A program made the position numbers and the translations under genes. Below, in pieces: positions 5,338-63,021 of a stretch of DNA of 64,000 nt (position 1 is the first letter of the stretch; every line of letters starts with the position of its first letter). The notes below the pieces were generated by a model. It made no database searches. It saw only the letters and a list, made by a program, of their open reading frames with translations, and was not told the DNA's origin. The DNA is taken from positions 124,001 through 188,000 of the forward strand of contig NZ_JASISS010000002.1 in NCBI RefSeq assembly GCF_030063195.1, written 5' to 3'. Source of the stretch: Cryobacterium sp. PH31-AA6. Lineage in GTDB: Bacteria > Actinomycetota > Actinomycetes > Actinomycetales > Microbacteriaceae.

Positions 5338-5346
5338 CTCAACGGC

Positions 5347-19797: not shown

Positions 19798-20460
19798 TCA
19801 GACGCGAGAACTCTGTCGGCGAGTGACGGCGGTTCGGATGAGGACTGGCACCACGGAAACGACGACAATTCCGATCAGGACGAGGTCGATATAGCGTGCT
19901 GCGAACACGGCAACGCCCGGAATATGAGCCAGCCCGAAGCCGAGGAGAACGATTCCCGTCGTCCACAGCAGAGCGCCGACGACGTTGAACATCGTGAACA
20001 CGCGCCGCGACATCTTGCCGACGCCGGCCGCGACCGGCGCAAAGGTGCGTACTACGGGTACGAAGCGGGCGATCATCACGGCCGCCGGGCCGAACCGGTC
20101 GAAGAAGCGTTGGGTTCGTACGACATTCCGCTGGCTGAAGAGGCCGGAGTCGCGGCGGTCGAAGATCCGCCGGCCAGACGTGAGCCCGATGATGTAGCCG
20201 AGCTGGTCCCCCAGCGCGGCCGACAGGGCAATGGCCGGGATGACGACCCAGAGAGGCTGGCTGATGACTCCGCTGAGGGTGAGCACGCCGGTGAAGAACA
20301 GCAGGGTGTCTCCGGGGAGGAAGAACCCGACGAGCAGGCCGGTCTCGACGAAGACGATGACGCAGACGACGGCCAGGCCCCAGACGCCAGCGCCCGCGAT
20401 CACCGATTGTGGATCGATGAATCCGGATGTGGATAGTGCGGTGGCGATCATGGTTTTCAT
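19798..20460 (-). CDS. DedA-family membrane protein, 220 aa
   Basis: DedA signatures are present: VETGLLVGFFLPGDTLLFFTG (residues about 38-58), ALGDQLGYIIGLTSGRRIFDR, and FFDRFGPAAVMIARFVPVVRTFAPVAAG, the arginine-rich re-entrant region. Five or six membrane helices are expected. DedA proteins include undecaprenyl-phosphate flippases (UptA). The gene is 234 bp downstream of a two-component system and a PAP2 phosphatase on the same strand. The 20461-20694 gap contains nothing else recognisable. Confidence 0.93.
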   Translation of the reverse strand: MKTMIATALSTSGFIDPQSVIAGAGVWGLAVVCVIVFVETGLLVGFFLPGDTLLFFTGVLTLSGVISQPLWVVIPAIALSAALGDQLGYIIGLTSGRRIFDRRDSGLFSQRNVVRTQRFFDRFGPAAVMIARFVPVVRTFAPVAAGVGKMSRRVFTMFNVVGALLWTTGIVLLGFGLAHIPGVAVFAARYIDLVLIGIVVVSVVPVLIRTAVTRRQSSRV

Positions 20461-20694: not shown

Positions 20695-21720
20695 TTACTC
20701 GGAATTTCCCGGGACAGGGAGGCGGCCCCGGGGAAAAGTCAGCCTGATGGCCGTGCCCGCGCTGGTGCTCTCGACGACGCTCACGGATCCGCCGTATCGC
20801 ACAGCGATCTCCCTCACGAGCGAAAGTCCGATGCCAAAACCGGTTCGGGCGTTCCCGCTGTCGTCTGCAACGGCCCCGGAGTGAGCAAAACGATCAAAGA
20901 TGCGGGCCGGGTCGATACCGTGGATTCCGGGACCGCGGTCACGCACGGTGACCGACACTGACTTCTTGTCCACTCCCACGCCCACGGAGATGACAGATCC
21001 GCGGGGAGCGAACCGCAACGCGTTGTCCAGCAGAGCTACTACGCACCGCGTCACGCTGGCTGCGGGAACGCGAGCGGGCGCGGATTCTGGAGCATCCAGA
21101 TCGAGCGTGATCTGCTTTTCGACTGCGATGAGTTCGATTGACTGCACGGCGGCACTCACTGCGGGCTTCACATCGACGACAACGGTGTCGTTCACAGCGA
21201 CGCCGCCTGCCTCCGCCGATTCCAGAAGATCATTGACGATGTGGATGAGGTCCTTCGCATCGCCGCGGAGGTCAGCGACGACCAAGGAAGAGGGGTCGCC
21301 TGCGGGCAAGGCGCGTTGCAGAACTTGTAGGCGGGCGTCGAGCACTGCGAGCGGGGTCCGGAGCTCATGGCTGGCGTCGGCGACGAAAGCGCGTTGCATC
21401 CGCAGCACCTCGCCGAGAGGCTGAACGGCCCGCAAGGTGACCAGCCAGCTCATCACGCCGGCAAGAATGATCAAGGCCACACCCAAAACAGTGGCGGCGC
21501 GCAAGAGCCCGCTGGCGCTGACCGTCAAGTTCTCGGTGTCCGGCAGCGGGCCGAACAATTCACCAGCGGATATCTCGGAAAGAATGTAGACAAACATGGC
21601 AACGATGACGAGCGCGACAACGGCGGCGCACACGAGCGCAATCCGGGCTCCGACAATACGGGAGGCTCGCCGGATGGCGAGGGTATCGCTGTCGACCATT
21701 GAATGATTGCTGCGGGTCAT
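20695..21720 (-). CDS. Sensor histidine kinase, 341 aa
   Basis: Two membrane helices (about residues 25-48 and 72-96) enclose a short extracytoplasmic loop of about 24 residues. A HisKA domain (VADASHELRTPLAVLDARLQV, His118), N box DNALRFAP and G-type box TGFGIGLSLVREIA follow. No HAMP domain is evident. The very short sensor loop resembles intramembrane-sensing kinases that monitor envelope stress. The ATG overlaps the stop of the response regulator by 4 bp. Confidence 0.9.
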   Translation of the reverse strand: MTRSNHSMVDSDTLAIRRASRIVGARIALVCAAVVALVIVAMFVYILSEISAGELFGPLPDTENLTVSASGLLRAATVLGVALIILAGVMSWLVTLRAVQPLGEVLRMQRAFVADASHELRTPLAVLDARLQVLQRALPAGDPSSLVVADLRGDAKDLIHIVNDLLESAEAGGVAVNDTVVVDVKPAVSAAVQSIELIAVEKQITLDLDAPESAPARVPAASVTRCVVALLDNALRFAPRGSVISVGVGVDKKSVSVTVRDRGPGIHGIDPARIFDRFAHSGAVADDSGNARTGFGIGLSLVREIAVRYGGSVSVVESTSAGTAIRLTFPRGRLPVPGNSE

Positions 21721-22391
21721 GGTTGTCCTAAGCGGTAGCCCTGGCCGCGCACGGTGAGGACGATGTCGGTGTCTGTTTTGCGACGGAGGTAATGCACATA
21801 GGTATCCACCGTTCCGGCCGTGTCCGCGGCGCTGAACACAGCCGTCAGAATCTGTTGGCGGGAGAACGTGCGCTGTGGTGCTTCAGCCAGGAGTTTGAGC
21901 AGCTCGTTCTCCTTGTCGGTCAAGAGGATGCGCCCGTCGTACGGTGAATAGATCGTGCGGCTGTCTGGGTAATACTCCCAACCGCCCACCAGCAAGGTAC
22001 GGCCCTCGCCGGTGAACACGCGACGGATGGCTCGCAGCCGGGCGAATAGCTCGTCGAACTCGAACGGCTTCACAAGGTAATCGTTTGCGCCGATGTCGAG
22101 CCCCGCGACTTTGTCGTTGGTGGTGCCTAGTGCCGTGAGGAGAAGAATCGGGGTGGTGATCAGCTTGCGGCGGAGGGCCTCAACGACTCCCAATCCATCC
22201 AGCACCGGCAGTCGCCGATCGATGACCATCACCTCGAATTCGCCGCCCAGGCCTGCGGCCAGACCTTCCGCCCCGTCGACGACGAGAGTGACATCGTAAA
22301 TCTCCGTGAGCACATCCCTGATCATCGGACCAAGCTTCGCATCGTCTTCGATCAGCAACAGTCGGGCTCGAGTCGTGCGCTCAATGGGCAC
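21717..22391 (-). CDS. OmpR/PhoB-family response regulator, 224 aa
   Basis: Receiver domain with LLLIEDDAKLGP acidic pocket, phosphoacceptor D58 (VMVIDRRLPVLDG), T in LLLTALGT and K in DYLVKPFEF. The C-terminal winged helix has LTDKENELLKLLAEAPQRTF and VDTYVHYLRRKTDTDIVLTVRGQGYRLG. It overlaps the PAP2 gene by 11 bp and the kinase by 4 bp. The gene set suggests it controls its own operon in response to envelope stress; no operator was identified. Confidence 0.93.
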   Translation of the reverse strand: MPIERTTRARLLLIEDDAKLGPMIRDVLTEIYDVTLVVDGAEGLAAGLGGEFEVMVIDRRLPVLDGLGVVEALRRKLITTPILLLTALGTTNDKVAGLDIGANDYLVKPFEFDELFARLRAIRRVFTGEGRTLLVGGWEYYPDSRTIYSPYDGRILLTDKENELLKLLAEAPQRTFSRQQILTAVFSAADTAGTVDTYVHYLRRKTDTDIVLTVRGQGYRLGQP

Positions 22392-23094
22392 CCTGGGCTC
22401 CTCCGTGGGCGGCTCCGGCGTGGGGGCCGGAGCGACGTTTGGTCCAGTGTGACATCATCAGCGTCCATGAAGCGTTTGCGAGGGTCACGGCGGCGATCGC
22501 ATACACGATCGACGCCACCACGTCGGACGGGTAATGCACCCCCAGGTAGACCCGGGAGGCTGCGGTCCCCAACACGACAACAACGGCAACGCCGATCAGC
22601 AATGGGCGCCGCCCGTGATGAGCCGTCACGACGATGAGGCCGAGGAGGATGCTGGCGGCGAAACTGGTGTGTCCGCTGGGAAAGCTGAGCCCACCCGGTT
22701 CGAGGACCAAGATGTGGGTGAGCGACGGGATGTCAGGGCGAGGGCGGTGCACGATCAACTTGATCACGGCCGCGCCCAGAGTGGGAATAACGACGATCAG
22801 CAGGAACTGGATTGCCGTCCGCGGCCGCCGGGTATCGAAAAGAATCCAGCCGGTCGCGAGCAGCACCACTACCGTCGCAACCTCCGGAGCGAACAGCCAG
22901 TTGATCCCCAGCGCGATCCAGTCGAGGACAGGGGTATGCGCGATATTCACCTGGCGGAGCACGTCCATCTCCGCTGACGTCCACCCGGCCGACGATCGCA
23001 ACAGTATCCCGCAGGCGATAACCGCGACAATGACCACGGCAGCGGGGATAGCGGTCCGTGCGAAACGGATGTGCGGTCGGGTCTCGGTTTCCAT
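22381..23094 (-). CDS. PAP2-family lipid phosphatase, 237 aa
   Basis: All three PAP2 motifs are intact: KLIVHRPRP, FPSGHTSFAAS, and SRVYLGVHYPSDVVAS. Six membrane helices are expected. Members include BcrC-type undecaprenyl-diphosphate phosphatases; substrate here is unknown, though coexpression with a two-component system and a nearby DedA protein favours the C55-P cycle. The C-terminal 20 residues are His/Gly/Ala-rich (GPHAGAAHGGAQGAH). It begins the operon; its stop lies inside the response-regulator gene. Confidence 0.92.
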   Translation of the reverse strand: METETRPHIRFARTAIPAAVVIVAVIACGILLRSSAGWTSAEMDVLRQVNIAHTPVLDWIALGINWLFAPEVATVVVLLATGWILFDTRRPRTAIQFLLIVVIPTLGAAVIKLIVHRPRPDIPSLTHILVLEPGGLSFPSGHTSFAASILLGLIVVTAHHGRRPLLIGVAVVVVLGTAASRVYLGVHYPSDVVASIVYAIAAVTLANASWTLMMSHWTKRRSGPHAGAAHGGAQGAH

Positions 23095-23145: not shown

Positions 23146-24096
23146 CTAGTCCACGCTGGGGAATGTCAGTGTCACGACCGTCCCGGCGAGGGATCCCGGC
23201 CGGACGCCGATCGTGCCCGAGTGGGCATCACAGATTTGTTTGACGAGGGCAAGGCCCAGACCGTGGCCTGCCACGGTACGGGATCCATCGCCTCGCCAGA
23301 AGCGTTTGAAGGCGTGGCTAGCCTCATTCGGGGTCATTCCGATGCCGTCGTCGATGACTTCGATGACGGCGGCATCCGCTTGCCTGTCCAGCCGGATGGT
23401 GACGGAACCGGATTCCGGGGTGAACTTGATGGCATTGTCGACGATGTTGCCGACGGCCCGAATAAGAAGTTCGGGGGAACCGGAAATGGCAACGAGGTCC
23501 CGAAGTTCGACGTGGAGGCTCGGCCCATTGCCCGTTGTCGCGAGGTAAGGTCTGACCGCTCGCTCGATCACCATGTTGAGTAGCGTCGGTTCGAACGTTG
23601 CGGTTATTTCCGCGTCGGATCCACGCGCCAAGAGGAGAAGGTCGGTGGTGAGGGTGGCCAGATCGTTCACGACCTCGAGGGTCTCGTCAATGGCGGCCTG
23701 ATAGTACGCGGCGGACCGGGGCCGGGACCGCGCAAGTTCCAGTTCCCCCTGGATAACACTCAGCGGGGTTCGGAATTCGTGCGACGCATCGTCGACGAAA
23801 CGTTGTTGTGCGTTGTAGCTTTCCCGGGCGGGGCGAAGGGCAACCCGCGCCATCAGGTAGCTGATGACGGGGACGATGATCGTCAGTACGGCGGATCCAA
23901 CGAGAAGTCCGATCCGAAGGTTCGCGAACCCCTGTTCGGCGGCATTGACCGCGCTGACGCCGTCCGCCTGGGCGGAGTCGAAGTCGAAGGTTCCGGTGAC
24001 GTAGACGTAGATGCCGAACGCAAACGACCAGAACAACAGTAGTTGGATGAGGGTGAAGGCGATCGTCAGCCGCCTGACCGCACTACGGAAGATCAT
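23146..24096 (-). CDS. Sensor histidine kinase of the first TCS/ABC cassette, 316 aa
   Basis: Two membrane helices (about residues 10-32 and 61-83) flank a 28-residue outside loop containing GTFDFDS. The HisKA motif is VDDASHEFRTPLSVIQGELEL (His106), followed by DNAIKFTP, DDGIGMTP and GHGLGLALVKQICDAHSG. The ATG at 24096 (MIFRSAV) is chosen because the paralogous kinase at the right end begins at the same residue; a TTG four codons upstream is possible. The start overlaps the response-regulator stop. It matches the kinase at 61374-62315 over its whole length, including EQGFANLR in the loop. Confidence 0.92.
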   Translation of the reverse strand: MIFRSAVRRLTIAFTLIQLLLFWSFAFGIYVYVTGTFDFDSAQADGVSAVNAAEQGFANLRIGLLVGSAVLTIIVPVISYLMARVALRPARESYNAQQRFVDDASHEFRTPLSVIQGELELARSRPRSAAYYQAAIDETLEVVNDLATLTTDLLLLARGSDAEITATFEPTLLNMVIERAVRPYLATTGNGPSLHVELRDLVAISGSPELLIRAVGNIVDNAIKFTPESGSVTIRLDRQADAAVIEVIDDGIGMTPNEASHAFKRFWRGDGSRTVAGHGLGLALVKQICDAHSGTIGVRPGSLAGTVVTLTFPSVD

Positions 24097-24772
24097 GCGG
24101 GGCGGCAATCAGGTAACCGAATCCTCGGACCGTCTCGATGATGTCCGATTCCCCGGGGAGGGTGAGTTTCCTTCGCAGGTAACGAATGTAGGTCTGCACG
24201 ACGTTGCTGAATCCGTCGTAGTTGTTGTCCCAGGCGTGGTCGATCAGTTCGCTGGAGCTGACCACGGTCCCTGCATTGCGCATCAGGTACTCGAGTACTG
24301 AGAATTCCTTGGCTGTCAACGGGATGACCCGATCGGCACGTTTCGCCGATCGGGTCGCGGGGTCCAGGCTGAGGTCCCCGACCTGGAGGATAGGGGCCGT
24401 CGCGTGGGGTGCGCGCCGCAAAAGGGCGCGCACCCGAGCGAGCAATTCGACCAGGTGGAACGGTTTGACGAGGTAGTCGTCGGCACCTGCGTCCAGGCCC
24501 TCGACCTTCTTCCGTGGTGAGTCCAGTGCAGTCAGCATCAGGATCGGAACGGAGTTGTCCGTGGCCCGCATGATCCGGCAGACCTCCATCCCCCCACCTG
24601 GCAAGCCAGGCAGGAGCAGATCGAGGATCACGAGGTCGTAGGAGTCGATCTCGAAGGCAGTGATTGCTGCCGGCGCCGAGTGGACGACGTCCACCGCGTA
24701 GCTGGCTTCGGTGAGTGCTCGCCGAACAACATCTGCAATTCGGGTATCGTCCTCGACGACCAGGATCCTCAT
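24083..24772 (-). CDS. OmpR/PhoB-family response regulator of the first TCS/ABC cassette, 229 aa
   Basis: Receiver domain with D51 phosphoacceptor (LVILDLLLPGLPGGGMEVC), TALD and DYLVKPFHLVELLARVRALLRR; winged helix with LTAKEFSVLEYLMRNAGTVV and TYIRYLRRKLTLPGESDII. It lies 12 bp after the exported-protein stop and overlaps the kinase. Direct 11-bp-spaced repeats upstream of the operon are candidate binding sites. The paralogue at 62312-62992 is very similar, including FHLVELLAR and SSSELIDHAWD. Confidence 0.94.
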   Translation of the reverse strand: MRILVVEDDTRIADVVRRALTEASYAVDVVHSAPAAITAFEIDSYDLVILDLLLPGLPGGGMEVCRIMRATDNSVPILMLTALDSPRKKVEGLDAGADDYLVKPFHLVELLARVRALLRRAPHATAPILQVGDLSLDPATRSAKRADRVIPLTAKEFSVLEYLMRNAGTVVSSSELIDHAWDNNYDGFSNVVQTYIRYLRRKLTLPGESDIIETVRGFGYLIAAPHDLP

Positions 24773-24784
24773 CGTGTGGTTCCC

Positions 24785-25363
24785 CTAGTCGACTTTCTCA
24801 CCGGTACCGGGTGACTTCTTCGCTGTTGCGGTCGCGAGTTTCATTCCGGTAGCGCTGGCCTCGATCGTGAAATCGACCTGGTTGGTGGAGCTGCGGTAGA
24901 TACTGAACTTGTTTTCAGGATAGTGGCCGACACCACCCTGGTTGTCGAAGTAGACGGTGGTTTCGGAATTCGGCGCGAGGGTGAGCGGGTCGAGTTTCTG
25001 GTAGTAGGCCTCCCTTTTGCCGGTCGTGGCGTCCGTCTGCTGGTAGTAGATCTCCAGGCCGGTCAGCGTTTGACTGGTGGCATTCTTCAAAGTGAGTTGC
25101 AACCGGTCGGCCATTGCGGTTCCGGTAGCTGGGTCGACGTTGTCTTCGACCATCGCACTGGTGATGCTGAGGCCGGGGGTGGTGCTGGTGTTCGTAATCG
25201 GGTCCGACGTCACCGGGAGCACGGTGCCCGCCGTGGAACTGACAGCGGCCGGTGCGGCAGCCCCGGGGTTGTTGCTGGGGCTGCTACTGAATTGCCAGAT
25301 GGCGAGCCCGCCGATGACGAGGGCGAGGATGGCCGCGATGGGAATGATCTTTTTCCAGTTCAT
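24785..25363 (-). CDS. Exported protein of unknown family in the TCS/ABC cassette, 192 aa
   Basis: An N-terminal hydrophobic segment (MNWKKIIPIAAILALVIGG) acts as a signal anchor or uncleaved signal. A Ser/Pro/Ala linker follows, then a beta-rich domain: DPITNTSTTPGLSITSAMVE, DNVDP, LTGLEIYYQQTDATTGKREA, LAPNSETTVYFDN, HYPENKFSIYRSSTNQVDFT. I do not recognise a named family. The ATG is preceded by GGAGAG and overlaps the stop of the permease. The paralogue at 63022-63588 is a lipoprotein with the same domain. Position between exporter and two-component system suggests a surface ligand-binding or immunity protein; that is inference. Confidence 0.85.
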   Translation of the reverse strand: MNWKKIIPIAAILALVIGGLAIWQFSSSPSNNPGAAAPAAVSSTAGTVLPVTSDPITNTSTTPGLSITSAMVEDNVDPATGTAMADRLQLTLKNATSQTLTGLEIYYQQTDATTGKREAYYQKLDPLTLAPNSETTVYFDNQGGVGHYPENKFSIYRSSTNQVDFTIEASATGMKLATATAKKSPGTGEKVD

Positions 25364-26331
25364 GATTCTCTCCTGAGTAGTGCGCGTTTGGTAGTGGCCA
25401 GGGCCGTGAAGCCGACGGCGCCCATGAAAGCGAGGGTGAGGGTGATTGTGTAGGGGAGCATGCTCGCCCAAACGTCACCGACGGGTTGTTGGTTGTATTG
25501 ATCCTTGATGCCGAGAAGGGCGAATGCCGGGCGTTCGAAGTGTTTGGTGATCGAGGACACTTCCAATCCGTTTCGAATGTCGTCGAAGCCGGCGAAGTTC
25601 GCCATCACCGCCTTTTCGTCAGGTTTGGCGACGGCGAGGCTCTTGAACAGTCCGCCGGGAACCTGGTTGTCGGGATCCATCGTGTCGCCGATCTGGGGAA
25701 TGATCAGCACCACCACGAGCCACGCGACGAGAGCGACGATCAGTCCCGTGCTTGCCCTCCGTGCGCGGGCGGCAAGGCCCATGGCGACGCAGCTCCACAA
25801 CATCAGATAGAGCCAGGCGATGATTGCGGTCAGGGCGAGTCGCTCGAAGTCGATGAGCTGGAGCGGGGCATTACCAATCACGAGCAGCGCCGCAATCATG
25901 GCGACGAAGACGCCGGCGGTCACCACAGCCCATGCCACAGCGAAAGCCAGAACCTTTCCACCGGCCACCGTGAACCGGGAAACCGGGCGGGTAAAGATCA
26001 GGTGAAGCGTTCCATGCTGCTTCTCTTTTGCCACGGTTCCGTAACCGATGATGATGGCGAAGAGAGCGCCGATGAGCTCCAGATACTCGATGCTTCCGCG
26101 CAGCAACTGCAGCGGGAACAATTGTGGTGCAGGCGGTGTCTCGGTGCTCCCGCTTCGTCGAAGGGTGTCCAGGTAGAGGTTGTAATCACCGATTTTGGCC
26201 CGGAAGTCAAAGGAGGCGACGATCACGGAGAGAATCATCACCACGGCGAGGAAGCCGAAGAGGATGAGGTAGAAGCGTGTTCGTTTGAGGTCGGTGAGTT
26301 CCCTGCGGGCAATCACCAGGAGGCTATTCAT
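25360..26331 (-). CDS. ABC-2 type transporter permease, second subunit of the cassette, 323 aa
   Basis: Six or more membrane helices: RFYLILFGFLAVVMILSVIV at the N terminus, then a roughly 50-residue outside loop before IEYLELIGALFAIIIGYG, then EKQHGTLHLIFTRPVSR, the NosY-like cytoplasmic coupling motif, and LIVALVAWLVVVLIIPQIGD. A large periplasmic loop carries GDTMDPDNQVPGGL and FDDIRNGLEVSSITKHFE. The ATG at 26331 overlaps the upstream permease stop; a TTG precedes it directly. A partial paralogue lies at 63585-64000. Confidence 0.9.
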   Translation of the reverse strand: MNSLLVIARRELTDLKRTRFYLILFGFLAVVMILSVIVASFDFRAKIGDYNLYLDTLRRSGSTETPPAPQLFPLQLLRGSIEYLELIGALFAIIIGYGTVAKEKQHGTLHLIFTRPVSRFTVAGGKVLAFAVAWAVVTAGVFVAMIAALLVIGNAPLQLIDFERLALTAIIAWLYLMLWSCVAMGLAARARRASTGLIVALVAWLVVVLIIPQIGDTMDPDNQVPGGLFKSLAVAKPDEKAVMANFAGFDDIRNGLEVSSITKHFERPAFALLGIKDQYNQQPVGDVWASMLPYTITLTLAFMGAVGFTALATTKRALLRRES

Positions 26332-27223
26332 CAAGGGGGCTCCGCATCCGGTCGCGCTGGGTTGTGAGTAAGACGACGAGCATGCACCCGGCGAACGCCA
26401 CCATGACGACCAGGCTCAGCAGAGGGCTGCCGGTCGTCGCGGTGTCGCCGAGCACGAATGCGCTGGCCTGTTTGAAATGCTCGGTCAGCGAGAGCGGCCC
26501 GAGCACAAGATTCGCGAGTTGAAAGACCCCGCCCTGCGAGGCGATAGCCGGCACGGGGTTCAACAACGACACCGGGTGCGCTGCAGTTCCCAACTGAGGA
26601 ACCACAAAAGTCACCACACTCCAGATCACGATTGGAACGAGGAGCGCCGTAGTTTCGCGTCGACTGTAGACGCCGGTCAGCATCCCCAGAATGATGAAGG
26701 GCAGAAGGAACAGCCACGCGAGGGCGTAGAAGCCGAGCAGACGAGCGGTGTCGCCCGGCGACAGGACGCTGCCGACGATCGCACTGATGCTGGTCCAGCT
26801 GATGAGCGCCGAAAGAGCGAGGATTCCCGCCACCCAGCACAGCAGACCGGCGAGCTTCGCCCCCAGATACGAGGCCGGGCGAACCGGGCGACTCAGCACC
26901 AGGTCAAAGGTATGGGCCTTACGGTCCCTGATCGTTGATTGCACGCCCAGCACGATGGCCAGCAGCGCCCCGATCAGAATGATGTAAATGACGGTGTTCT
27001 TCGCGTAATAGAGAGGCGAGACCGCCGAGAACGGATTCGGTTGAGTGGTCAGGCCCGCGGCAAAGGTTCGGTCATACACGCTGGTCACGACCTGATTGGT
27101 CAGCCACCCGATCACGGACGACGCCGTCACCATCCCGACAAATACGGCCAATAGGACCTGCGGCATCCGCTCTCGCCGGGAGCTGAGCAGTTCCTGCCGT
27201 GCGCCGGCGGTAAAGGTTGTCAC
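26324..27223 (-). CDS. ABC-2 type transporter permease, first subunit of the cassette, 299 aa
   Basis: Same fold as its neighbour: N-terminal cytoplasmic RQELLSSRRERMPQVLLAV, helix 1 VFVGMVTASSVIGWL, a long outside loop, then IYIILIGALLAIVLGVQSTI and DRKAHTFDLVLSRPVRPAS. Further helices follow (ISAIVGSVLSP, LAWLFLLPFIILGMLTGVYS). Members are annotated as multi-copper-enzyme maturation (NosY-like) or ABC-2 permeases; they export lipids, peptides or drugs. The substrate is unknown. It overlaps the ATPase gene by 4 bp and the next permease by 8 bp. Confidence 0.9.
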   Translation of the reverse strand: MTTFTAGARQELLSSRRERMPQVLLAVFVGMVTASSVIGWLTNQVVTSVYDRTFAAGLTTQPNPFSAVSPLYYAKNTVIYIILIGALLAIVLGVQSTIRDRKAHTFDLVLSRPVRPASYLGAKLAGLLCWVAGILALSALISWTSISAIVGSVLSPGDTARLLGFYALAWLFLLPFIILGMLTGVYSRRETTALLVPIVIWSVVTFVVPQLGTAAHPVSLLNPVPAIASQGGVFQLANLVLGPLSLTEHFKQASAFVLGDTATTGSPLLSLVVMVAFAGCMLVVLLTTQRDRMRSPLDE

Positions 27224-27957
27224 CGTTCCGGCCGAGCTTCGATGTGGAGGTAAATGTCTTCCAGCGATGCCTCATCCGGGAACGCAGTGAGGGTGGCAGC
27301 CAACGAATCCTGGTAGACCAGTTCGCCCTCCCGCAACACCCCAATGCTCGTGCAGGTTTGGGTCACCTCGGCGAGCAGGTGCGTGTTCATGAAAATCGTC
27401 ATTCCGAAATGCCGGTTCAAGTTCAGGATGATTTCACGCAGATTACGCACACCCTGCGGGTCGAGTCCCGACGTGGGCTCGTCCAGAAAGAGCACCTTCG
27501 GGTTGTGCAGGATGGATTGGGCAATCCCCACCCGCTGCCGCATTCCCTTGCTGAACGTAGACAGCCGCTCGGATTCGTGACCGGTGAAGTCGAGAAACTC
27601 CAGAACCTCCCGAATCCGCGCGTCCGGTTTGTCCAAACCTGACAGCCGGGCGAAGAATCGCAGATTTTCCAGGAGAGTGAGATTGCCGTAGAACTGCACG
27701 TTCTCCGGCAGGTATCCGATGGTCCGACGAACTTCGTCAGCATCGGCGTGGATATCGAGCCCCAAGATCGTCGCGGTCCCCTCGGTAGGCGGGATCAGCG
27801 TGGTCAGCAAGCTGACCGCCGTGGTCTTTCCTGCGCCGTTGTGGCCGAGCAGACCGAAGATCTCTCCCTCCCCCACGCTCAGGTTGAGTCCTTTGAGGGC
27901 GGCCTTGGGCCCGTAGGAGTGCGAGAGCTCAGTGGTCTTTATCGCTGTGTCGTTCAT
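27220..27957 (-). CDS. ABC transporter ATP-binding protein, 245 aa
   Basis: Walker A GHNGAGKTT (residues 38-46), Q-loop IGYLPENVQFYGNLT, signature STFSKGMRQRVGIAQS, Walker B KVLFLDEPTSGLDP and H-loop MNTHLLAEV. It drives the two overlapping permeases and opens a six-gene minus-strand operon: ATPase, permease, permease, exported protein, response regulator, kinase. It is divergent from the GT-C glycosyltransferase; the shared intergenic space has regulatory-looking repeats. Confidence 0.96.
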   Translation of the reverse strand: MNDTAIKTTELSHSYGPKAALKGLNLSVGEGEIFGLLGHNGAGKTTAVSLLTTLIPPTEGTATILGLDIHADADEVRRTIGYLPENVQFYGNLTLLENLRFFARLSGLDKPDARIREVLEFLDFTGHESERLSTFSKGMRQRVGIAQSILHNPKVLFLDEPTSGLDPQGVRNLREIILNLNRHFGMTIFMNTHLLAEVTQTCTSIGVLREGELVYQDSLAATLTAFPDEASLEDIYLHIEARPER

Positions 27958-27980: not shown

Positions 27981-28030
27981 GATGAGATGAAGATGAGAGA
28001 GCCGATGTTGGTCTCTCACCTTCCTCTCAC
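27981..28030. promoter_or_regulatory. Two pairs of 11-bp-spaced direct repeats upstream of the ABC/TCS operon
   Basis: GATGAGA occurs at 27981-27987 and 27992-27998, and CTCTCAC at 28013-28019 and 28024-28030. In both pairs the repeat starts are 11 bp apart, the spacing of OmpR/PhoB-class tandem half-sites. The second pair reads GTGAGAG on the minus strand, so the two pairs face each other. They lie 24-73 bp upstream of the ABC ATPase start. They could bind the regulator encoded in the same operon. Confidence 0.5.
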
Positions 28031-28088
28031 GCCCAAAAACCTAACCTCTATATGTGGCAATCCAATGCCGGAATACCGGAGAGTGAAG

Positions 28089-29624
28089 ATGCGGAACGAG
28101 CGCTGCAACGGCACGTTTCCCATCCGCGCCCACCGGCCGCCGCGCACGGCGCAGCTCGCGGCGATCTCGGGTGTCGCCGGCACCCTGGTGTCCCTGCTCG
28201 GTTCATGGGTGCCATCATTGTGGGGCGATGAGGCGGCCAGCTTGATGTCCGCGACTCGCCCACTGCCGAGCCTCTTCGCCATGCTCGGCAACGTCGATGC
28301 AGTGCACGGAACGTACTATCTGGGACTCCACGCGTGGATTTCCCTCTTCGGCAGCTCACCCTTCTCTCTCCGATTCCCCAGCGCTATTGCCGTCGGGCTC
28401 GCCGTCGCGGCGCTGGTTCTGATCGCCGCACGCCTGAGCACCCCCCGGGTTGCTGTGATAGCCGGCGTGATCGCCTGCCTGCTGCCACGGGTCACCTACA
28501 TGGGCGAGGAGGCTCGGCCGTTTGCCTTCAGCGCTGCCATCGCCGCCTGGACCACCCTGCTCCTCATCGAACTGCTCCGTCATCACAGTCCCCCGCGCCG
28601 CCTCTGGATCGCGTATGGCCTGATGTTTACGCTCGGAATCTATGTCTTCCTCTACTTCGCGTTGTTCGCACTTGTGCACGCGATCATCCTGTTCCGCACC
28701 CGACCCACCCGACTCTTCATCAAGCGGTGGTTCTGGGTGATCACGATCGCCGCGGCTGCCTCCTCCCTGGTCATCTATTGGGCGGTCCGGGAACGAAGCC
28801 AAATCGCGTACCTCGGCAACGGCAACCAAGTCACGATCCACTCGATCCTGGTCTCCCTGTGGTTTGGCACGCCCTGGTTCGCTGTCCTCGCCTGGCTCCT
28901 CATCCTGGTCGGGCTCGCGGCGAGCGTGCACCGCCGGTGGGGCCGGAAAAGGGTTCGCATTGCACGGGCGGCCGCAGCTTCGCCTGAGCTGCCCAGCCTG
29001 GAATTCGTAGCCGCCGCCTGGCTCCTCGTCCCCACGGCAGTGCTGGTCGCCGGCGACATTTTCTGGGCAGGTTTCACAGCCCGCTACGCCTCGGACAGCG
29101 CTCCCGCTGCCGCACTCTTGATGGCATCCGGCTTGGCGTGGATCGGCGCCCGGAGGCGATGGATCGTCGCCGCCGGCACCCTCCTCGTCCTCGTAGCCTC
29201 CCTTCCTATCTATGCTTCCCAGCGCGAACCGCACTCGAAGAACAACAGCGATTGGGCCGACATCAGCAGGGTCTTAGGTGCCCAGGCATCGGTGTGGGAT
29301 GCGGTCGCCTTCGATGAACAGGTTCGCCCATCGCGACGCCCCCGTTTGGCACTGCACACCTATCCGGCCGGCTTCGAAGGACTCATCGACGTCTCTCTGC
29401 GCACCCCCTTCTCGCAGAGTTCAACCTGGTACGACCGCAGCTACAGCATCGACGAGGCGGCGGCGCTGGGACGTCTGGACAAGGTGCACCACCTGTGGCT
29501 CGTCGAATACGCCACCCCAACGCACACGGACACGTACGGAATTGCCGCCTTGGAGAACCTTGGATTCTCCAAGTCAGCCCAGTACGCTACCCACCGCAGC
29601 GTCATCTACGAATTCACCCGTTAG
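28089..29624 (+). CDS. GT-C fold membrane glycosyltransferase (ArnT/PMT-like), 511 aa
   Basis: At least ten membrane helices. After the first helix the extracellular loop carries SLWGDEAASLMSA, placing the catalytic acidic residues where GT-C enzymes such as ArnT and mannosyltransferases have them. VHGTYYLGLHAWISLFG follows, and YMGEEARPFAFS continues the pattern. A C-terminal soluble domain (residues about 390-511) is periplasmic. The chosen ATG follows GGAGAG; in-frame starts at 28065 and 27975 would lengthen only the cytoplasmic tail. The donor is probably a polyprenyl-phosphate sugar and the acceptor a surface polymer or protein. An acyltransferase gene follows by 12 bp. Confidence 0.85.
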   Translation: MRNERCNGTFPIRAHRPPRTAQLAAISGVAGTLVSLLGSWVPSLWGDEAASLMSATRPLPSLFAMLGNVDAVHGTYYLGLHAWISLFGSSPFSLRFPSAIAVGLAVAALVLIAARLSTPRVAVIAGVIACLLPRVTYMGEEARPFAFSAAIAAWTTLLLIELLRHHSPPRRLWIAYGLMFTLGIYVFLYFALFALVHAIILFRTRPTRLFIKRWFWVITIAAAASSLVIYWAVRERSQIAYLGNGNQVTIHSILVSLWFGTPWFAVLAWLLILVGLAASVHRRWGRKRVRIARAAAASPELPSLEFVAAAWLLVPTAVLVAGDIFWAGFTARYASDSAPAAALLMASGLAWIGARRRWIVAAGTLLVLVASLPIYASQREPHSKNNSDWADISRVLGAQASVWDAVAFDEQVRPSRRPRLALHTYPAGFEGLIDVSLRTPFSQSSTWYDRSYSIDEAAALGRLDKVHHLWLVEYATPTHTDTYGIAALENLGFSKSAQYATHRSVIYEFTR

Positions 29625-29636
29625 TAGTCCCCGGCA

Positions 29637-30905
29637 ATGACCCACCAATCTCAGGAAACGAGTTCCACAGAACACCCAGAATCAGCAACTACCCTCAAAC
29701 GGGTGACAGGGCAACTCGCAATCGTTCGACCGCCGTCGACCACGCCCGCGCCGGCCCGACGCCTGAGCGCCCTGGACGGCCTCCGGGGCGTCGCGGCCCT
29801 GATCGTCATGTTCCACCATGTCTATCTCGTTGCGGTCCCTGCGCTCCGCAGCGGGGGCGGATCCGCCCCGGGCAGCATCTACTGGTGGGTGTCCGAAACG
29901 CCGGTGAAAATCCTGACCGCGGGGTCCGAAGCCGTCCTGGTCTTCTTTGTCCTGAGCGGACTCGTCGTCGCCCTGCCCGCACTGCGCGCGCCTCGATTCT
30001 CCTGGCCGGGATTCCTGAGCGGCCGAATCGCACGGATCTACCTCCCCGTGTGGGCCTCACTGGCCATCGGCACCGCGCTCATCTGGTTCTTCCCCCGCAA
30101 CATCCGGGTCGTAACGCCCGGCTCCTGGGTTGCCGACACAAACGCGACCTCGACCACGGCGGCAGCTCTGCTCAACCAGGCGAGCCTCACTACCGCATCG
30201 TACGACGTGAACAATGTGCTCTGGTCTTTGCGGTGGGAACTCGCCTTTTCAGTCTTGCTCCCCCTGTTCGTTCTCGTCGCCGTCCTGGTTCGACGCCATT
30301 GGCTGCTCGCCGTGTTCGCCGCGTTCGCCCTCGGCTTGCTGGGGCTGCTCACCAACATCGACGCGCTCCGTTACCTGCCGGTGTTCTTCATCGGAACGCT
30401 CATGGCCGTGCGCTTGGAGTCAATTCAGGACTGGTCCAGGCGATGCCTGTGCCGCCCGAACGCGCACCGCTGGGGCGTTGCCCTTGTTGTCGGATCCCTT
30501 GCCCTCCTTGTCGGACACTGGTGGGCCCAGCCGCTCGCGGCACCCGGATCGCTCCTCGGCAAGGTTCTGACTCAGCTGGCGGTGCTCGGCGCCGCCGGCC
30601 TCGTTCTCTCCGCCATCATCGTTCCGTTTCTGCGCCGAGCATTGGACTCAAGACCGAGCCAGTGGCTGGGGCGAGTGTCCTTCAGTCTCTACCTCGTTCA
30701 CGTCCCCATCCTGGTCACCCTGACCTTTATCTTCGGGGACGATAAGTGGTGGCTGGTCGCACTTATCACCGTGCCGCTCGCGCTCGTGATTTCTTGGGGA
30801 TTCCACGTAGCCGTCGAGCGTCCCTCGCATCGGCTGGCGCGGCGCACCGCCCACACTGTGGCCGCGGGCGCCACGAGAATCGTCGAGCGTGTGACCAAAC
30901 GGTAG
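29637..30905 (+). CDS. Acyltransferase 3 (OafA-like) membrane O-acyltransferase, 422 aa
   Basis: Family motif RRLSALDGLRGVAALIVMFHHV (residues about 41-62) with the catalytic His, then FFVLSGLVVALPALR, FLSGRIARIYLPVW, and a late WLGRVSFSLYLVHVPI helix. Ten membrane helices are expected. The first 40 residues are a hydrophilic Ser/Thr/Pro-rich tail. Members acetylate or succinylate surface polysaccharides or peptidoglycan. The gene is cotranscribed with the preceding GT-C glycosyltransferase, so it probably modifies the same polymer. Confidence 0.92.
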   Translation: MTHQSQETSSTEHPESATTLKRVTGQLAIVRPPSTTPAPARRLSALDGLRGVAALIVMFHHVYLVAVPALRSGGGSAPGSIYWWVSETPVKILTAGSEAVLVFFVLSGLVVALPALRAPRFSWPGFLSGRIARIYLPVWASLAIGTALIWFFPRNIRVVTPGSWVADTNATSTTAAALLNQASLTTASYDVNNVLWSLRWELAFSVLLPLFVLVAVLVRRHWLLAVFAAFALGLLGLLTNIDALRYLPVFFIGTLMAVRLESIQDWSRRCLCRPNAHRWGVALVVGSLALLVGHWWAQPLAAPGSLLGKVLTQLAVLGAAGLVLSAIIVPFLRRALDSRPSQWLGRVSFSLYLVHVPILVTLTFIFGDDKWWLVALITVPLALVISWGFHVAVERPSHRLARRTAHTVAAGATRIVERVTKR

Positions 30906-30937: not shown

Positions 30938-32347
30938 TCAGGAGCCCAACAGCCCTCCCGTGGGGGCGAGCGGAAGCCGCACCACGAAGACCGCACCGGC
31001 CCGGCCGTCGGACCGATCCTCGATCGTGATCGTGCCGTGGTGATCCTGAACGATCTGCCTCACGATGGACAGGCCGACCCCGGCGCCACCACCGCGGGCC
31101 GTGCGACTGCGAGCGTCATCGAGTCGGGTGAAACGCTCGAAGACTCTCTCCCGGTCCTCCGCACGGATGCCGTCACCATCATCCGTGATCGAAAATTCCG
31201 CCTCATTCGGGGTAGCCGTCAGCCGAATCGAAACGAGAGAGCGGGAGTGCTCACGGGCATTGTCACCGAGGTTGCGCAAGAGGCGGGCCAAATCGCGCTC
31301 CGAGCCTTGTACCCGTGCCGCACGAACTCCACCGAGATCAACGGCCCGCCCGCCGAGCCCCCGCAGGCGATGCAGTTCCGACAGGACAAGATCGTCAAGA
31401 TCGACAAGAGCCGTCGGCCCCCGCGGCGTGCCCTCCGCGCTGCGCGCTAGGAACAGCAGATCGTCCGTCAACGCTGCCATCCGGACAACCTGCCCGTGAA
31501 CGTCGTCCAAAACGAGGGCCGAACCGGGGTCCTCCGGGTGCGCCAATGCCACCTCCACCTGAACCTGCAGCGCCGCCAACGGACTGCGCAGTTCATGCGA
31601 CGCATCGCCCACGAATTGGCGCTGGCGAAGCGCCGCCGCCTCCAGCCGCTCAAGCATTTCGTTCATCGTTACCGCAAGGCTCGCGATCTCATCGGAGCTG
31701 TCGGGCACAGGGACGCGCTGTGACAGATCTTCCCCACCGATAACCGCAGCCCGTCGACGAATGGCGTCGACCGGACGGATCACCTGACCCGCAGCGCGCC
31801 ACAGCGCCCACACCACAATCAAAAGAATGAGGGGAAGTCCGACTCCGAAGAGGCCGGCCAGGTTGCCGACTGCCACATCGACCTGGCTCGTCGACGTGGC
31901 AACATAGATCCAGCCGTTCCCGGTGGACAACTTCACGGGCGTCGCGACCACCCGAAAGGGACCGTCCCCGGCGGGCATCCGATCCACACTCAGCACCGTC
32001 GTCACTCCAGTCGATGGAGGCTGCGGGAGGATCGGCTCCTCCCCGTCAATGTTGCTGGTCGCCGCAATCACCGAATTCGAGGAGTCGACGACCTGCACGA
32101 GCGAGTTCTCGGAGCCAGTGTTGGTCACTGTGGGCCCCAAGTCCCCTCCGACGGCAAGCGACGCAACCGCCTGCGCTCGGTCCGCGGCCACAGTATCGAG
32201 GCTGGCGATCAGTGACTGGTGCAGAAGCAGGACAAGCGTGATGCCGCTGGCCAACAGTGTGAGGGCCACAACCGCCGATGCGGTGACGGTTACCCGAAAT
32301 CGGATCCCTGAATACCACCGCCGGGGCGTACGCAGTTTGATGGGCAT
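30938..32347 (-). CDS. HAMP-containing sensor histidine kinase, 469 aa
   Basis: TM1 is at residues about 18-43, followed by an extracytoplasmic sensor domain of about 115 residues (44-160), TM2 at 161-184, HAMP at 186-238 (IRPVDAIRRRAAVIGGEDLS), HisKA with VGDASHELRSPLAALQVQVE (His251), N box as GDNAREHS, and GVGLSIVRQIVQDHHG. The N box carries asparagine but is unusual in sequence. It lies 3 bp after the response-regulator stop and between glycosyl/acyltransferase genes and a teichoic-acid-type polymerase gene, so it may govern surface-polymer genes. Confidence 0.93.
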   Translation of the reverse strand: MPIKLRTPRRWYSGIRFRVTVTASAVVALTLLASGITLVLLLHQSLIASLDTVAADRAQAVASLAVGGDLGPTVTNTGSENSLVQVVDSSNSVIAATSNIDGEEPILPQPPSTGVTTVLSVDRMPAGDGPFRVVATPVKLSTGNGWIYVATSTSQVDVAVGNLAGLFGVGLPLILLIVVWALWRAAGQVIRPVDAIRRRAAVIGGEDLSQRVPVPDSSDEIASLAVTMNEMLERLEAAALRQRQFVGDASHELRSPLAALQVQVEVALAHPEDPGSALVLDDVHGQVVRMAALTDDLLFLARSAEGTPRGPTALVDLDDLVLSELHRLRGLGGRAVDLGGVRAARVQGSERDLARLLRNLGDNAREHSRSLVSIRLTATPNEAEFSITDDGDGIRAEDRERVFERFTRLDDARSRTARGGGAGVGLSIVRQIVQDHHGTITIEDRSDGRAGAVFVVRLPLAPTGGLLGS

Positions 32348-32350
32348 CGG

Positions 32351-33031
32351 TCACTCCCCGGATGTTTCCACGAGCCGGTACCCGATTCCTCGGACCGTTT
32401 CGATGAGGCCCTTGGTGCGGCCCTCGTCGAGTTTGCGACGCAGGTAGCCGATGTACACCTCGATCACGTTGGAGTCGATGTCCAGCTCCGAATCCCACAC
32501 ATGCTCAGCGATCGTGTTGCGGCTCACCACCTGACCCTTGCGGCGGATCAGGAACTCCGCAAGGGAGAATTCACGGGTCGTCAGCATGATCTCCGTCTCC
32601 CCGCGCCAGCAACGCCTGGCTGCAGGGTCGAGGCGGATGCTGCCCGCCGTGAGTACTGGCTCGCGATCAACCGGCGCCCGCCGCAGAAGCGCTCGGAGGC
32701 GGGCGAGCAAGACGATGAACGAGAACGGTTTTGACAGGAAATCATCCGCGCCCAGATCCAGGGCATCCGCTTCGTCGAATTCGCCGTCCTTCGCCGTCAA
32801 CATCAGGATCGGCACCGTCGAACCACCCGCGCGCAACCTCCGGCACACCTCGTAACCGGATAGCCCCGGGAGCATGATGTCGAGGATGATGACATCGAAA
32901 TCGTTCTCTTGGGCCATCCAGAGGCCGTCAACCCCGTTCATCGCGGCGTCGGTCACAAATCCCTCCGCCGTGAGCCCGCGCTGCAACGCGTCGACCATCG
33001 CGGCTTCGTCTTCGACGAGAAGTACTTTCAT
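32351..33031 (-). CDS. OmpR/PhoB-family response regulator, 226 aa
   Basis: Receiver with D51 (VIILDIMLPGLSGYEVCRRL), TAKDGE and DFLSKPFSFIVLLARLRALLRR; DNA-binding wing with LTTREFSLAEFLIRRKGQVV and VIEVYIGYLRRKLDEGRTKG. The pattern follows the MprA/PrrA-type actinobacterial regulators. The start ATG is 87 bp upstream-facing from the end of the glycerophosphotransferase-type gene on the same strand, so a separate promoter is possible. Confidence 0.94.
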   Translation of the reverse strand: MKVLLVEDEAAMVDALQRGLTAEGFVTDAAMNGVDGLWMAQENDFDVIILDIMLPGLSGYEVCRRLRAGGSTVPILMLTAKDGEFDEADALDLGADDFLSKPFSFIVLLARLRALLRRAPVDREPVLTAGSIRLDPAARRCWRGETEIMLTTREFSLAEFLIRRKGQVVSRNTIAEHVWDSELDIDSNVIEVYIGYLRRKLDEGRTKGLIETVRGIGYRLVETSGE

Positions 33032-33118: not shown

Positions 33119-35632
33119 TCACCTCCTCGTGAGTGTCGCCCCAATCGCGCTTTCGAACTCGTCCAGCGCCTCGGCGTTATAGGCCTGGTCGTCGAATTTT
33201 ACGGTCGGAACAGATCCGGACAGGTATGCGCTCATACCCGCTGCCAGCCCCTGATCTGTGGTCGGCACGATGAGTCCGGTACCTTCCGGGAGAGCGTCCC
33301 GGGCAGAACCGAACGCGACCGTGATGATGGGGAGGTCAAGGATGCGCGCTTCGAGGAGAACCATCGGCTGGCCCTCATAGTCGCTCGAGAGCACGAAACA
33401 GTCCGCAGCGGCCATGATCGCATACGGGTTATACCGGTGCCCGGTAAGTGCGACCGATTCCTCGACACCCACTTCACGGATCAGACCCTCCAAGGTCGTC
33501 CTCAACGGCCCGTCGCCGACGATTACCAATCGGGTGTCTGAACGCTGCTTGTGGAGCTGCGCAAAGGCACGAATCAGCCTCACCTGGTTCTTTTCGGACG
33601 ACAAACGCCCAACGGTGACGAAGTGCACGAGCGAGGACTCCCCGGCAAGACTGTCCAGCCAATCAGGTGCCGTGTCCGTCGGATCGTCGAGGACAGCCTC
33701 CCGGAGGTCGACGGCCGCAGCACGGCGGATGCGTGCGGAATCAACAAGATTGCGCGCTGAGACGAACTTCTCTCGGGGTGCAAAGCGGGCGAGTTCGCGG
33801 GCGTTGACTTCTTCGAGGGCCGGGGAAACGGAGACGAGATTGTCGTACTCACGGTACAACGAAAAGACGCTCGAGAGGCTCTTCAGCAGCCGGCGGCGCC
33901 CGTCGTTACTCCGTTGCGCGTCCGCAACCATGTCGTTGTGCAACCAAATAGACCGTTTGGCCAGCGGCGCGTGCAACATCAACGTTGCCCAGAATGGTCC
34001 GTACCCGCTGAAATCGATGACGTAGTCGAACCGGCTGTCACCAAAGCAGCGCGTCCATTCCTCATCCCACAGCCTCTTCTGCCGGGAATCGCGCGAGTGC
34101 GCACTGAGGTCGCCTCGATACCAGTGGAGCCGTCGCTTGAGGTGGTCGACTTTTGAACCGTTCATTCCCCCGACCCGGACGAATTGTCGGACCGAGGGAT
34201 GGATCTGCGCCTGATTCTCCAAGGCGACGGGCACTCGACTGTTTGAGAACACGGCAGACACGTCGTACCGCCGATGATCGATCGAGTTCAGGAGGTTCAG
34301 GGCAGAAGTCGTAATGCCGTTCGGCTTCATGCTGCCGACATGGACGAGCACGGATTGTCGCTCGTCGCGGGCCACCGGCGCGACAGTGTAGCCGTCACGT
34401 CTGCCCCGAAAGACGATGTCGATGATCCGCTCAGTTGCGCGGCCGTCCTCGTGCCCGGAGTATTTGTTCCGCATGGCGATGTAGTTCTGAGTGATCTCAG
34501 GTCGCGGCCCGGAGCGGGCGATGAAGTTCAATTCGGTGGCGAGTTCACTGACGGTGTGAACGACTGGCCCTGGCCATTCCTCAGGTTCCATATAGAGCCC
34601 GCGGTAGCCGGCGTAGTCGCGGATGTCCGGTGTCAGGAACACGATGGGTCGCCCCGTTGCCAGGAAGTCGAAAAAAGTACTTGAGTAGTCAGTGACGAGA
34701 ATGTCAGTCGCGGCCAGGACCGCGTTCGTCGGAATTTCGTTGGGGACCAGACTGCCGCGAAAGTCTGCGCGTGCGGCGGCGAATCTGTAGACCACCTGGT
34801 GGACCTTGAGCAGAACGACGTACCGGGTCGTGTCGATCAATGATTCGAGCTCGGTCACCCGGCCGAGCAGCTCGTCCGCATCGTCACGAGGGTGGGCGAA
34901 CGATTCACCCTTCCACGTCGGCGCGTACAGGATGATCTTCCGTCCGGCAATGGGCAGGCCGGCCCCTTCGAGGGTTTCTATCATCGACGCGACACCGCTC
35001 GAATCAAGGAACTGCCGGTCGATCCGGGGATACCCTTCCTCGATGATCTCGCCGCGGTAGATATTACGCAGCAGGTGGGCAGATTCATACATTTGTTCGG
35101 TCATGAACCGGTTTGCCGCGAGCAGATAGTCGGCAGCCAGGAAGTTCCGGATCACATTGCCTACGCGAGATGCGGGATCACCGATGTCGAAGCCCATGCG
35201 TTTCAACGGGGTGCCATGCCAGGTATTGAGGTAGACCTGACCTTCGCGTTTGTTGAACTGCACCGGAAAGGTCGCGTTGTTGATGAGAAATCCGCTGGTG
35301 GCCAAGGCCCTGTAGTAGCCGAGGGAGTTCGGGCGAACGAATCGGACTGACGAATCCCGAGCGAATTCGTGAACGACGGTCGGGTTCTCGTCTTCCCTGG
35401 CGAGCACCCACACGTGCTTGAGATGCGTGAAATCTGGTGCCTCACGCAATCCCCGGAAGATCGCCTCAGGGTTGCACAGCATCCCATTGCCCGAGAACGA
35501 CTCATAGAGGACAACGTTGCGATCCACCGGCCGTCTGCTCCAGAACGCGTACATTTCTGAAGCTGCAGCCCGACGAAGCCTGCTCACAACTCGTTTCACC
35601 CGAACAAGAACCGCGCGCGGCAACATCTGCAT
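33119..35632 (-). CDS. Bifunctional CDP-glycerol-type glycerophosphotransferase and GT4 glycosyltransferase, 837 aa
   Basis: The N-terminal half (residues about 35-410) is a TagB/TagF-like polymerase: NTWHGTPLK at 136-144, EEGYPRID at 198-205, YAPTWKG at 236-242, VVLLKVHQ at 272-279, and TDYSSTFFD at 314-322. The C-terminal half (about 425-830) is a GT-B glycosyltransferase: GSMKPNGITTS, VGRLSSEKNQ at 674-683 and SSDYEGQPMVLLEA at 749-762. The fused enzyme probably builds a glycosylated poly(polyol-phosphate) wall teichoic acid. No membrane helix is visible. It is divergent from a full-length paralogue at 36414-38957. Confidence 0.92.
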   Translation of the reverse strand: MQMLPRAVLVRVKRVVSRLRRAAASEMYAFWSRRPVDRNVVLYESFSGNGMLCNPEAIFRGLREAPDFTHLKHVWVLAREDENPTVVHEFARDSSVRFVRPNSLGYYRALATSGFLINNATFPVQFNKREGQVYLNTWHGTPLKRMGFDIGDPASRVGNVIRNFLAADYLLAANRFMTEQMYESAHLLRNIYRGEIIEEGYPRIDRQFLDSSGVASMIETLEGAGLPIAGRKIILYAPTWKGESFAHPRDDADELLGRVTELESLIDTTRYVVLLKVHQVVYRFAAARADFRGSLVPNEIPTNAVLAATDILVTDYSSTFFDFLATGRPIVFLTPDIRDYAGYRGLYMEPEEWPGPVVHTVSELATELNFIARSGPRPEITQNYIAMRNKYSGHEDGRATERIIDIVFRGRRDGYTVAPVARDERQSVLVHVGSMKPNGITTSALNLLNSIDHRRYDVSAVFSNSRVPVALENQAQIHPSVRQFVRVGGMNGSKVDHLKRRLHWYRGDLSAHSRDSRQKRLWDEEWTRCFGDSRFDYVIDFSGYGPFWATLMLHAPLAKRSIWLHNDMVADAQRSNDGRRRLLKSLSSVFSLYREYDNLVSVSPALEEVNARELARFAPREKFVSARNLVDSARIRRAAAVDLREAVLDDPTDTAPDWLDSLAGESSLVHFVTVGRLSSEKNQVRLIRAFAQLHKQRSDTRLVIVGDGPLRTTLEGLIREVGVEESVALTGHRYNPYAIMAAADCFVLSSDYEGQPMVLLEARILDLPIITVAFGSARDALPEGTGLIVPTTDQGLAAGMSAYLSGSVPTVKFDDQAYNAEALDEFESAIGATLTRR

Positions 35633-62992: not shown

Positions 62993-63021
62993 GGGTTTCC
63001 GTTCCAGGCCAAGGATGCCAG

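Follow-up and report, generated by a model that had tools for sequence, protein, structure and literature searches.

The stretch analysed here (the window) comprises 64,000 nucleotides of Cryobacterium sp. PH31-AA6 (contig NZ_JASISS010000002.1, positions 124,001 to 188,000), in which six same-strand genes, overlapping or closely abutting at 23146-27957 on the minus strand, encode an ATP-binding cassette (ABC) transporter, a surface protein (SP) and a two-component system. Two observations define this cassette: the adjacency of SP to one of the two permeases is obligate in the genome samples studied, and a previously unreported operator repeat stands ahead of the ATPase start, with extra copies ahead of further genes. 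Taken as a whole, and with about even confidence, the cassette may be read as an autoregulated NosFY-like ABC-lipoprotein module that serves in envelope defence against cationic membrane-active compounds.

The six genes code for an ABC_tran ATPase (27220-27957; 6.5e-33), two NosY-like ABC2_membrane_2 permeases, namely PermA (26324-27223; 5.7e-12, six hydrophobic segments) and PermB (25360-26334; 2.7e-16), the N-terminally anchored SP (24785-25363), an OmpR-type response regulator (RR, 24083-24772; Response_reg 2.5e-25, Trans_reg_C 2.7e-25) and a HisKA/HATPase histidine kinase (HK, 23146-24108; HATPase_c 1.5e-27, HisKA 1e-10) with two hydrophobic segments and 34 residues between them. The start codon of SP most likely lies at 25363, where an ATGA overlaps the stop of PermB, and the open reading frame (ORF) 24785-25471 would consequently be 36 codons too long. 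The original prediction had described such a six-gene cassette, with an unnamed conserved surface protein beside an exporter and a two-component system. The gene order and overlaps proved correct, the order recurs in many other genomes, and the motifs named at the time (PITNTST, EIYY, PEN-FSIYRSS-NQVDFT) are present in the sequences. The surface protein remains unnamed, as SP has no match to any Pfam or NCBIfam model above cut-off; weak matches to DUF7136, WxLIP_HBD and PhrK (E 0.015-0.08) were rejected, being under every cut-off.

Linkage of the surface protein to the transporter

The distribution of SP was analysed in 57 genomes of the genus, 398 of the family and 396 of the phylum, the two SP copies of the genome under study coming on top of these counts. 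SP was detected at 14 strong places in 12 genus genomes, at 16 places in 15 family genomes and in 10 phylum genomes, one of the last holding a remnant and two of them showing SP at two places or in two pieces; a weak match in G013 (E 7e-4, 28%) was left out. Full-length PermB was found at 14 places in the same 12 genus genomes, at 16 places in the same 15 family genomes and at nine places in eight phylum genomes (with up to five first-look candidates scored per genome in the family and phylum searches), and by coordinates SP adjoins it at every one of these places (14/14, 16/16 and 9/9).

A collection of 51 SP rows, representing 50 distinct loci after removal of seven loci that repeat one place and of SP rows below 100 bits (including the remnant L073), provides the comparison with the other genes. 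PermB adjoins SP in 48 of the 51 rows (46 by script, and two, L069 and L071, in which a PermB ORF abuts it) and the ATPase lies within 3.5 kb in 47, whereas within 8 kb an RR (at least 100 bits) is found in 40 rows and an HK in 38, which argues that SP belongs with the transporter. Most Microbacteriaceae have the RR-HK pair downstream; L064, L066 and L070 have it upstream, and in Arthrobacter it is partly divergent. In L052 (genome G420) it is absent from the locus, and an RR 71% identical to that of the window is encoded about 120 kb away. Of permease, regulator and kinase, the permease is thus the near-constant neighbour of SP; the two-component system is a frequent companion but movable or absent, and the kinase was rejected as an obligate partner of SP.

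Surface protein and permease loop

An AlphaFold (AF2) model of SP shows a seven-strand immunoglobulin (Ig)-like sandwich, with 97 residues at a predicted local distance difference test (pLDDT) score of at least 90; residues 1-42 score below 50, and the last residues form a coil whose score falls to 46 at the very end. Among solved structures SP resembles Ig domains of a generic kind (factor XIII best, at Z 9.7; WxLIP at Z 8.3), matches that were not used for assigning function, and a profile search of solved-structure sequences gave best matches of only E 0.62 and 0.70. SP of the window has a single N-terminal hydrophobic segment (residues 6-24). According to a simple pattern, 23 of 47 SPs carry a lipobox, nine carry TSP3-type repeats and 15 have neither, the window protein among them; L066, scored without a lipobox, has a lipobox-like AAGC. 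The SPs of L085, L086, L087, L069 and L071 have a TSP3-type (DTDGDG) segment ahead of the Ig-like domain, and TSP3_bac was confirmed by Pfam in L087 and L069. PADLOC gave no match for SP or PermB, and within the search terms used, no paper on the cassette or on SP was found in the open-access literature.

The window SP ends in the tail KSPGTGEKVD, and a tail of the approximate form K-x-x-G-x(0-2)-E/D is present in all 46 complete ABC-linked SPs and missing from both solitary, UppP-linked SPs, a pattern drawn up on these same sequences after the tails had been viewed and with both exceptions from one lineage. Truncated L070 and the remnant L073 were left out of this count, and L072 at a contig end and L088 with its PermB fragment were kept as ABC-linked. 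The two solitary relatives (L065, 2738-3280; L068, 8004-8489) are divergent from UppP (BacA).

The PermB model (pLDDT 86) is structurally nearest to NosY (Foldseek E 7.7e-6; Z 24.8, root mean square deviation 3.0 over 252 aligned residues, 18% identity), and NosY is also the only solved sequence that PermB matches (E 0.0093). The next unrelated structure entry scores Z 19.2, and efflux and lipid transporters are similar at Z of about 19 and below. By sequence, the nearest solved chains of the ATPase are ABCA3, ABCA4, ABCA1 and ABCA7, followed by NosF (1.5e-45). ATPase, PermA and PermB would form a NosFY-like ABC machine. Ahead of its last hydrophobic segment PermB has an 83-residue loop that opens with PQIGDTMDPDNQVPGGLF; residues 212-232 reach a mean majority fraction of 0.94 over 26 sequences, where the protein as a whole averages 0.68, and 34 sequences, proteobacteria among them, share PQ-GDT-PDNQ without change. 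By likeness to NosY, this loop probably lies on the outer side of the membrane.

Putative operator and regulon

Upstream of the ATPase start lies a direct repeat, TCTCAY-N5-TCTCAY, with a -10-like stretch behind it. In the window the putative operator TCTCATCTTCATCTCAT occupies 27982-27998 on the minus strand, 25 nucleotides ahead of the ATPase start codon, and in all 23 Microbacteriaceae/Cellulomonas loci the repeat stands 24-26 nucleotides ahead of the ATPase ATG with 10 of 10 half-site letters. A period of 11 gives a z of 9.9 in 21 non-redundant Microbacteriaceae sequences, so that the element is a direct repeat at the promoter, as in OmpR-family operators; elsewhere z is 3.1 (seven other-class sequences), 1.1 (four Micrococcaceae) and 0.8 (six proteobacteria). 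Six of six Micrococcaceae loci keep 8-9 of the 10 letters at 24-25 nucleotides, and seven other-class loci match 6 to 10 letters.

In 23 neighbourhoods (399,519 bp), 40 exact sites were found where about 0.16 were expected; the reversed control gave one site and nine other spacings gave 0-2 each. Of these sites, 23 lie ahead of the ATPase, 12 just behind HK on the HK strand and five elsewhere. The 12 sites behind HK come from the set of 22 loci that have RR-HK downstream: seven are followed by a secreted acidic ORF, that of L075 by a 51-residue relic of such an ORF, those of L058, L059 and L079 by an acidic PepSY-type secreted protein (PepSY by Pfam in L058 and L079), and the twelfth lies in L080. 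The five remaining sites stand ahead of a GT39-type gene of the window, of an esterase, MprF (confirmed as LPG_synthase_C) and an acidic ORF in L060, and of an acidic ORF near PAP2 in L084. In nine of the acidic proteins, once the signal sequence is removed at a roughly estimated position, 15-27 residues are Asp/Glu and 0-1 Lys/Arg.

The genome under study (3.68 Mb) has five exact sites, namely those of its two cassettes, that of the GT39-type gene divergent from the window cassette and two others, one 20 nucleotides ahead of a phosphotransferase system-like gene and one near a helix-turn-helix-type ORF, both of which look unrelated and may be due to chance. The divergent putative operator TCTCACCTTCCTCTCAC (28014-28030, plus strand) stands 34 nucleotides ahead of an in-frame ATG of the GT39-type (PMT_2) glycosyltransferase gene (28065-29624, plus strand; PMT_2 6.7e-10), and its position suggests that this gene is probably under the same regulator. 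An acyltransferase gene follows directly (29637-30905, plus strand; Acyl_transf_3 1.9e-32). On this sequence evidence, the repeat is established as the mark of the cassette's own promoter and of a small predicted regulon, and the RR of the cassette would be the protein that binds it.

Neighbourhood and mobility

Over the 51 SP rows, the neighbours comprise DedA (16), DUF347 (14), PAP2 (13), MprF (8), UppP (7, within 8 kb), esterase (5) and GT39 (4), counted with a library of chosen labelled genes that other recurring neighbours may escape. Among 26 SP loci, eight have DedA within 8 kb, where 0.53 would be expected, and seven have DUF347, where 0.10 would be expected; most of these are Cryobacterium and so are not independent, and the background was taken from 23 of 31 SP-holding genomes, eight being left out. 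DUF347 repeats were grouped by hand into 18 genes, and a weak, below-cut-off DUF347 match in G005 was dropped. UppP (BacA) lies 129 nucleotides behind SP on the same strand in L069, and a PAP2 gene stands beside the window cassette. In PMC10127716, COG0586 DedA proteins are described as putative undecaprenyl-phosphate flippases and fusions with PAP2 are reported.

SP is also carried by 14 plasmid records (seven conjugative, two mobilizable and five non-mobilizable) from Arthrobacter, Pseudarthrobacter, Cryobacterium (including C. arcticum plasmid NZ_CP016283.1), Rhizobium, Agrobacterium, Roseibium, Haematobacter, Thioclava, Aestuarium and Comamonadaceae; phage records gave no SP match. Of the 14 plasmids, 11 carry the three ABC genes in apparently intact form; in L112 and L113 these genes are partial or frame-broken, and a PermB fragment is all that is left in L088. 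The latter locus (9339-10435, on a conjugative plasmid of Rhizobium sullae) has SP and the PermB fragment only, directly behind nif genes.

Proposed function and alternatives

We infer complex formation, binding by the RR, the substrate and the function from these sequences as follows. SP would be a dedicated extracytoplasmic partner of the ABC machine, tethered by lipid or by its N-terminal segment, and its conserved C-terminal tail would probably serve for docking close to the conserved loop on the outer side of PermB. The RR would bind the 11-bp-phased direct repeat overlapping the -35 region and drive the operon (autoregulation) together with the GT39-acyltransferase pair in this genome and, in relatives, secreted acidic or PepSY proteins, MprF and esterase. 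The module may detect and counter cationic membrane-active compounds such as antimicrobial peptides and polymyxin- or bacitracin-like agents: the ABC machine would remove them from the membrane or free their lipid target, and the co-regulated genes would make the surface less attractive and recycle undecaprenyl phosphate. Defence against cationic compounds would best accommodate the joint presence of MprF, anionic secreted proteins, undecaprenyl-phosphate recycling genes and envelope glycosyltransferases.

Several points weigh against this proposal. The whole reading of a cationic defence is drawn from genes and sequence, and DedA, PAP2, DUF347 and phosphatases fit metal defence as well, several plasmids carrying metal genes nearby. 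Neither cassette of the genome under study has an operator-linked acidic gene or MprF, no such acidic gene stands behind HK in either, and the sites ahead of MprF and esterase come from a single locus (L060). The operator was not found ahead of the ATPase in six of six proteobacterial loci and is weak in some other-class loci, and a secondary period of 13 reaches a z of 4.9 in the Microbacteriaceae group. SP occurs without PermB in G462, where it is divergent from UppP, and G477 (a second SP), G723 (a remnant) and G013 (the 28% match) depart from the linkage too. As the loci are related, the counts are not independent events.

A more far-reaching version of the proposal is offered tentatively, as a possibility that we would not yet favour: SP would represent an undescribed family and, with its obligate NosFY-like transporter, a distinct SP-dependent ABC class, in which the invariant tail couples to the outer loop of PermB and a dedicated two-component system commands a regulon including secreted polyanionic "decoy" proteins and MprF, the whole being a mobile, cross-phylum defence against cationic peptides. 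The cassette has in any case gained a definition at the sequence level (the SP tail, the PQIGDT-DPDNQ loop of PermB and the TCTCAY-N5-TCTCAY operator), which makes a plasmid-borne ABC-lipoprotein-two-component module common to actinobacteria and proteobacteria recognizable and its putative regulon readable straight from DNA. The little-understood DUF347, PAP2 and DedA genes gain a shared genomic context. If protection against cationic antimicrobials is its true role, the cassette would be an unrecognised mobile resistance module, with the acidic secreted proteins as candidate anionic decoys.

Metal defence (e.g., against lead or copper) is the strongest rival, because DUF347/UppP operons answer lead in Frankia and several host plasmids carry metal genes, and we consider it unlikely. 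In such an island, PAP2/UppP-type phosphatases would supply phosphate that precipitates metal outside the cell, the acidic proteins would bind cations, and the transporter with SP would aid export or sensing. The closeness of DUF347 to SP is in keeping with this idea, as are the genes for copper or chromate that plasmids carry in the vicinity of the cassette. However, MprF and GT39 share the operator, and we know of no metal role for either; moreover, no metal-binding cluster is evident in SP and no Cys is invariant in the SP alignment. As to the literature, lead stress in Frankia raises the expression of three paralogous operons that contain UppP and DUF347 (PMC4531530), and Arthrobacter FB24, a strain with a plasmid-borne cassette, is tolerant of lead and of other metals (PMC3910542), but the available portions of these two papers do not tie the cassette to metals.

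Less probable still is a NosDFY-like maturation machine, in which the transporter would move SP mechanically and SP would load or assemble an envelope component instead of compounds being exported. The NosY fold of PermB, the NosF-like ATPase and an obligate extracytoplasmic partner encoded with the ABC genes resemble NosDFY(L) complexes. On the other hand, PermB also resembles the efflux and lipid transporters mentioned above, the labelled neighbours include neither nos genes nor a common client gene, and the cassette differs by two different permeases, its own two-component system and an Ig-like SP model that is not NosD-type, NosD being a beta-helix.

The original prediction had also suggested self-immunity, such as that of a peptide-antibiotic producer, which found no support and which we regard as very unlikely. 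The same kinds of parts and the same operon logic (ATPase, two permeases, lipoprotein and two-component system) are indeed found in LanFEG-LanI-LanRK systems of lantibiotic immunity, for which the abstract of PMC4828448 gives LanI and LanFEG as the two immunity parts. Nevertheless, the scores fall far short of the lantibiotic models: the ATPase reaches 180.8 bits against the lantibiotic-protection model TIGR03740 (cut-off 309.75) and PermB 11.5 bits against the lantibiotic-immunity permease model TIGR03732 (cut-off 145.2), while PermA has no NCBIfam match up to E 1. The neighbours vary over two phyla, lipid-cycle and envelope genes recur among them, some with the operator, and no product is named as peptide-antibiotic or bacteriocin biosynthesis in 12 annotated plasmid neighbourhoods, in which many products are "hypothetical" and no dedicated search was made. 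These observations agree better with a module for defence or envelope stress than with producer immunity. Least probable of all is that SP is mere cargo of the exporter, an anchored surface protein with no transport role: it ends the ABC operon in every complete locus, but its N-termini are of the usual Sec type (23 of 47 SPs match the lipobox pattern), so that it needs no ABC export, and the tail is kept only in ABC-linked SPs.

Two further systems resemble the defence module proposed here. Bcr bacitracin transporters (BcrABD, BcrABC) combine an ABC-2 exporter with an undecaprenyl-pyrophosphatase gene of the UppP type, as in bcrABDR (PMC3435297), and UppP accompanies the cassette in L069 and lies near others; the cassette adds SP and has two permeases, and its UppP is usually outside the operon. 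BceRS-BceAB systems likewise encode a transporter together with a short-loop kinase in a co-regulated defence, but according to PMC3023708 they have a kinase loop of at most 12 residues and one 10-segment permease with a loop above 170, about 200 residues, whereas the cassette HK has 34 residues between its segments and its permeases have six segments each, with 83 residues as the longest stretch. By analogy, the cassette may work like the LanFEG-LanI, Bcr and Bce systems, yet these scores and lengths place it outside the definitions of Lan and Bce members.

Second copy and other genes of the window

The repetition of the gene order at 61374-64000, leaving the window, was also borne out by the genome, in which this second copy is complete (L003, 2387-7195). 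Within the window, on the minus strand, it comprises HK (61374-62315), RR (62312-62992), SP with a lipobox (LTGC; 63022-63588, the start placed by alignment) and PermB (63585-64000), which continues in L003 (PermB 4586-5569) with PermA (5562-6461), the ATPase (about 6473-7195) and the operator (7219-7235). Identity to the first copy is 68% for the ATPase, 57% for PermA, 59% for PermB, 51% for SP, 75% for RR and 50% for HK. In a single-gene PermB tree (FastTree), the first copy pairs with L060 of another genus and the second with L080 of the same genus; the two copies therefore do not look like the outcome of a recent local duplication, an origin that was rejected.

Beside the window cassette, on the same strand, lie the PAP2 lipid-phosphatase-type gene (22381-23094; PAP2 1.6e-20), a second two-component pair recognized by labelled-library matches (20695-22391; HK 20695-21720, RR 21717-22391) and a DedA (VTT) protein (19798-20460; VTT_dom 4e-18); control of this run by the cassette RR was rejected because no exact operator stands there. 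A third RR/HK pair (30938-33031, minus strand) adjoins the GT39-acyltransferase genes. Farther along, two similar divergent genes of about 840 codons each (33119-35632, minus strand; 36414-38957, plus strand) encode what we take to resemble a fused polymer-glycerophosphotransferase and glycosyltransferase, and a small acidic secreted ORF lies between them (about 35833-36108, plus strand). The genes at 41419-43031 (plus strand), judged by eye, presumably encode a secreted protein with a thioredoxin-like fold and, behind it, a CcdA-like membrane protein.

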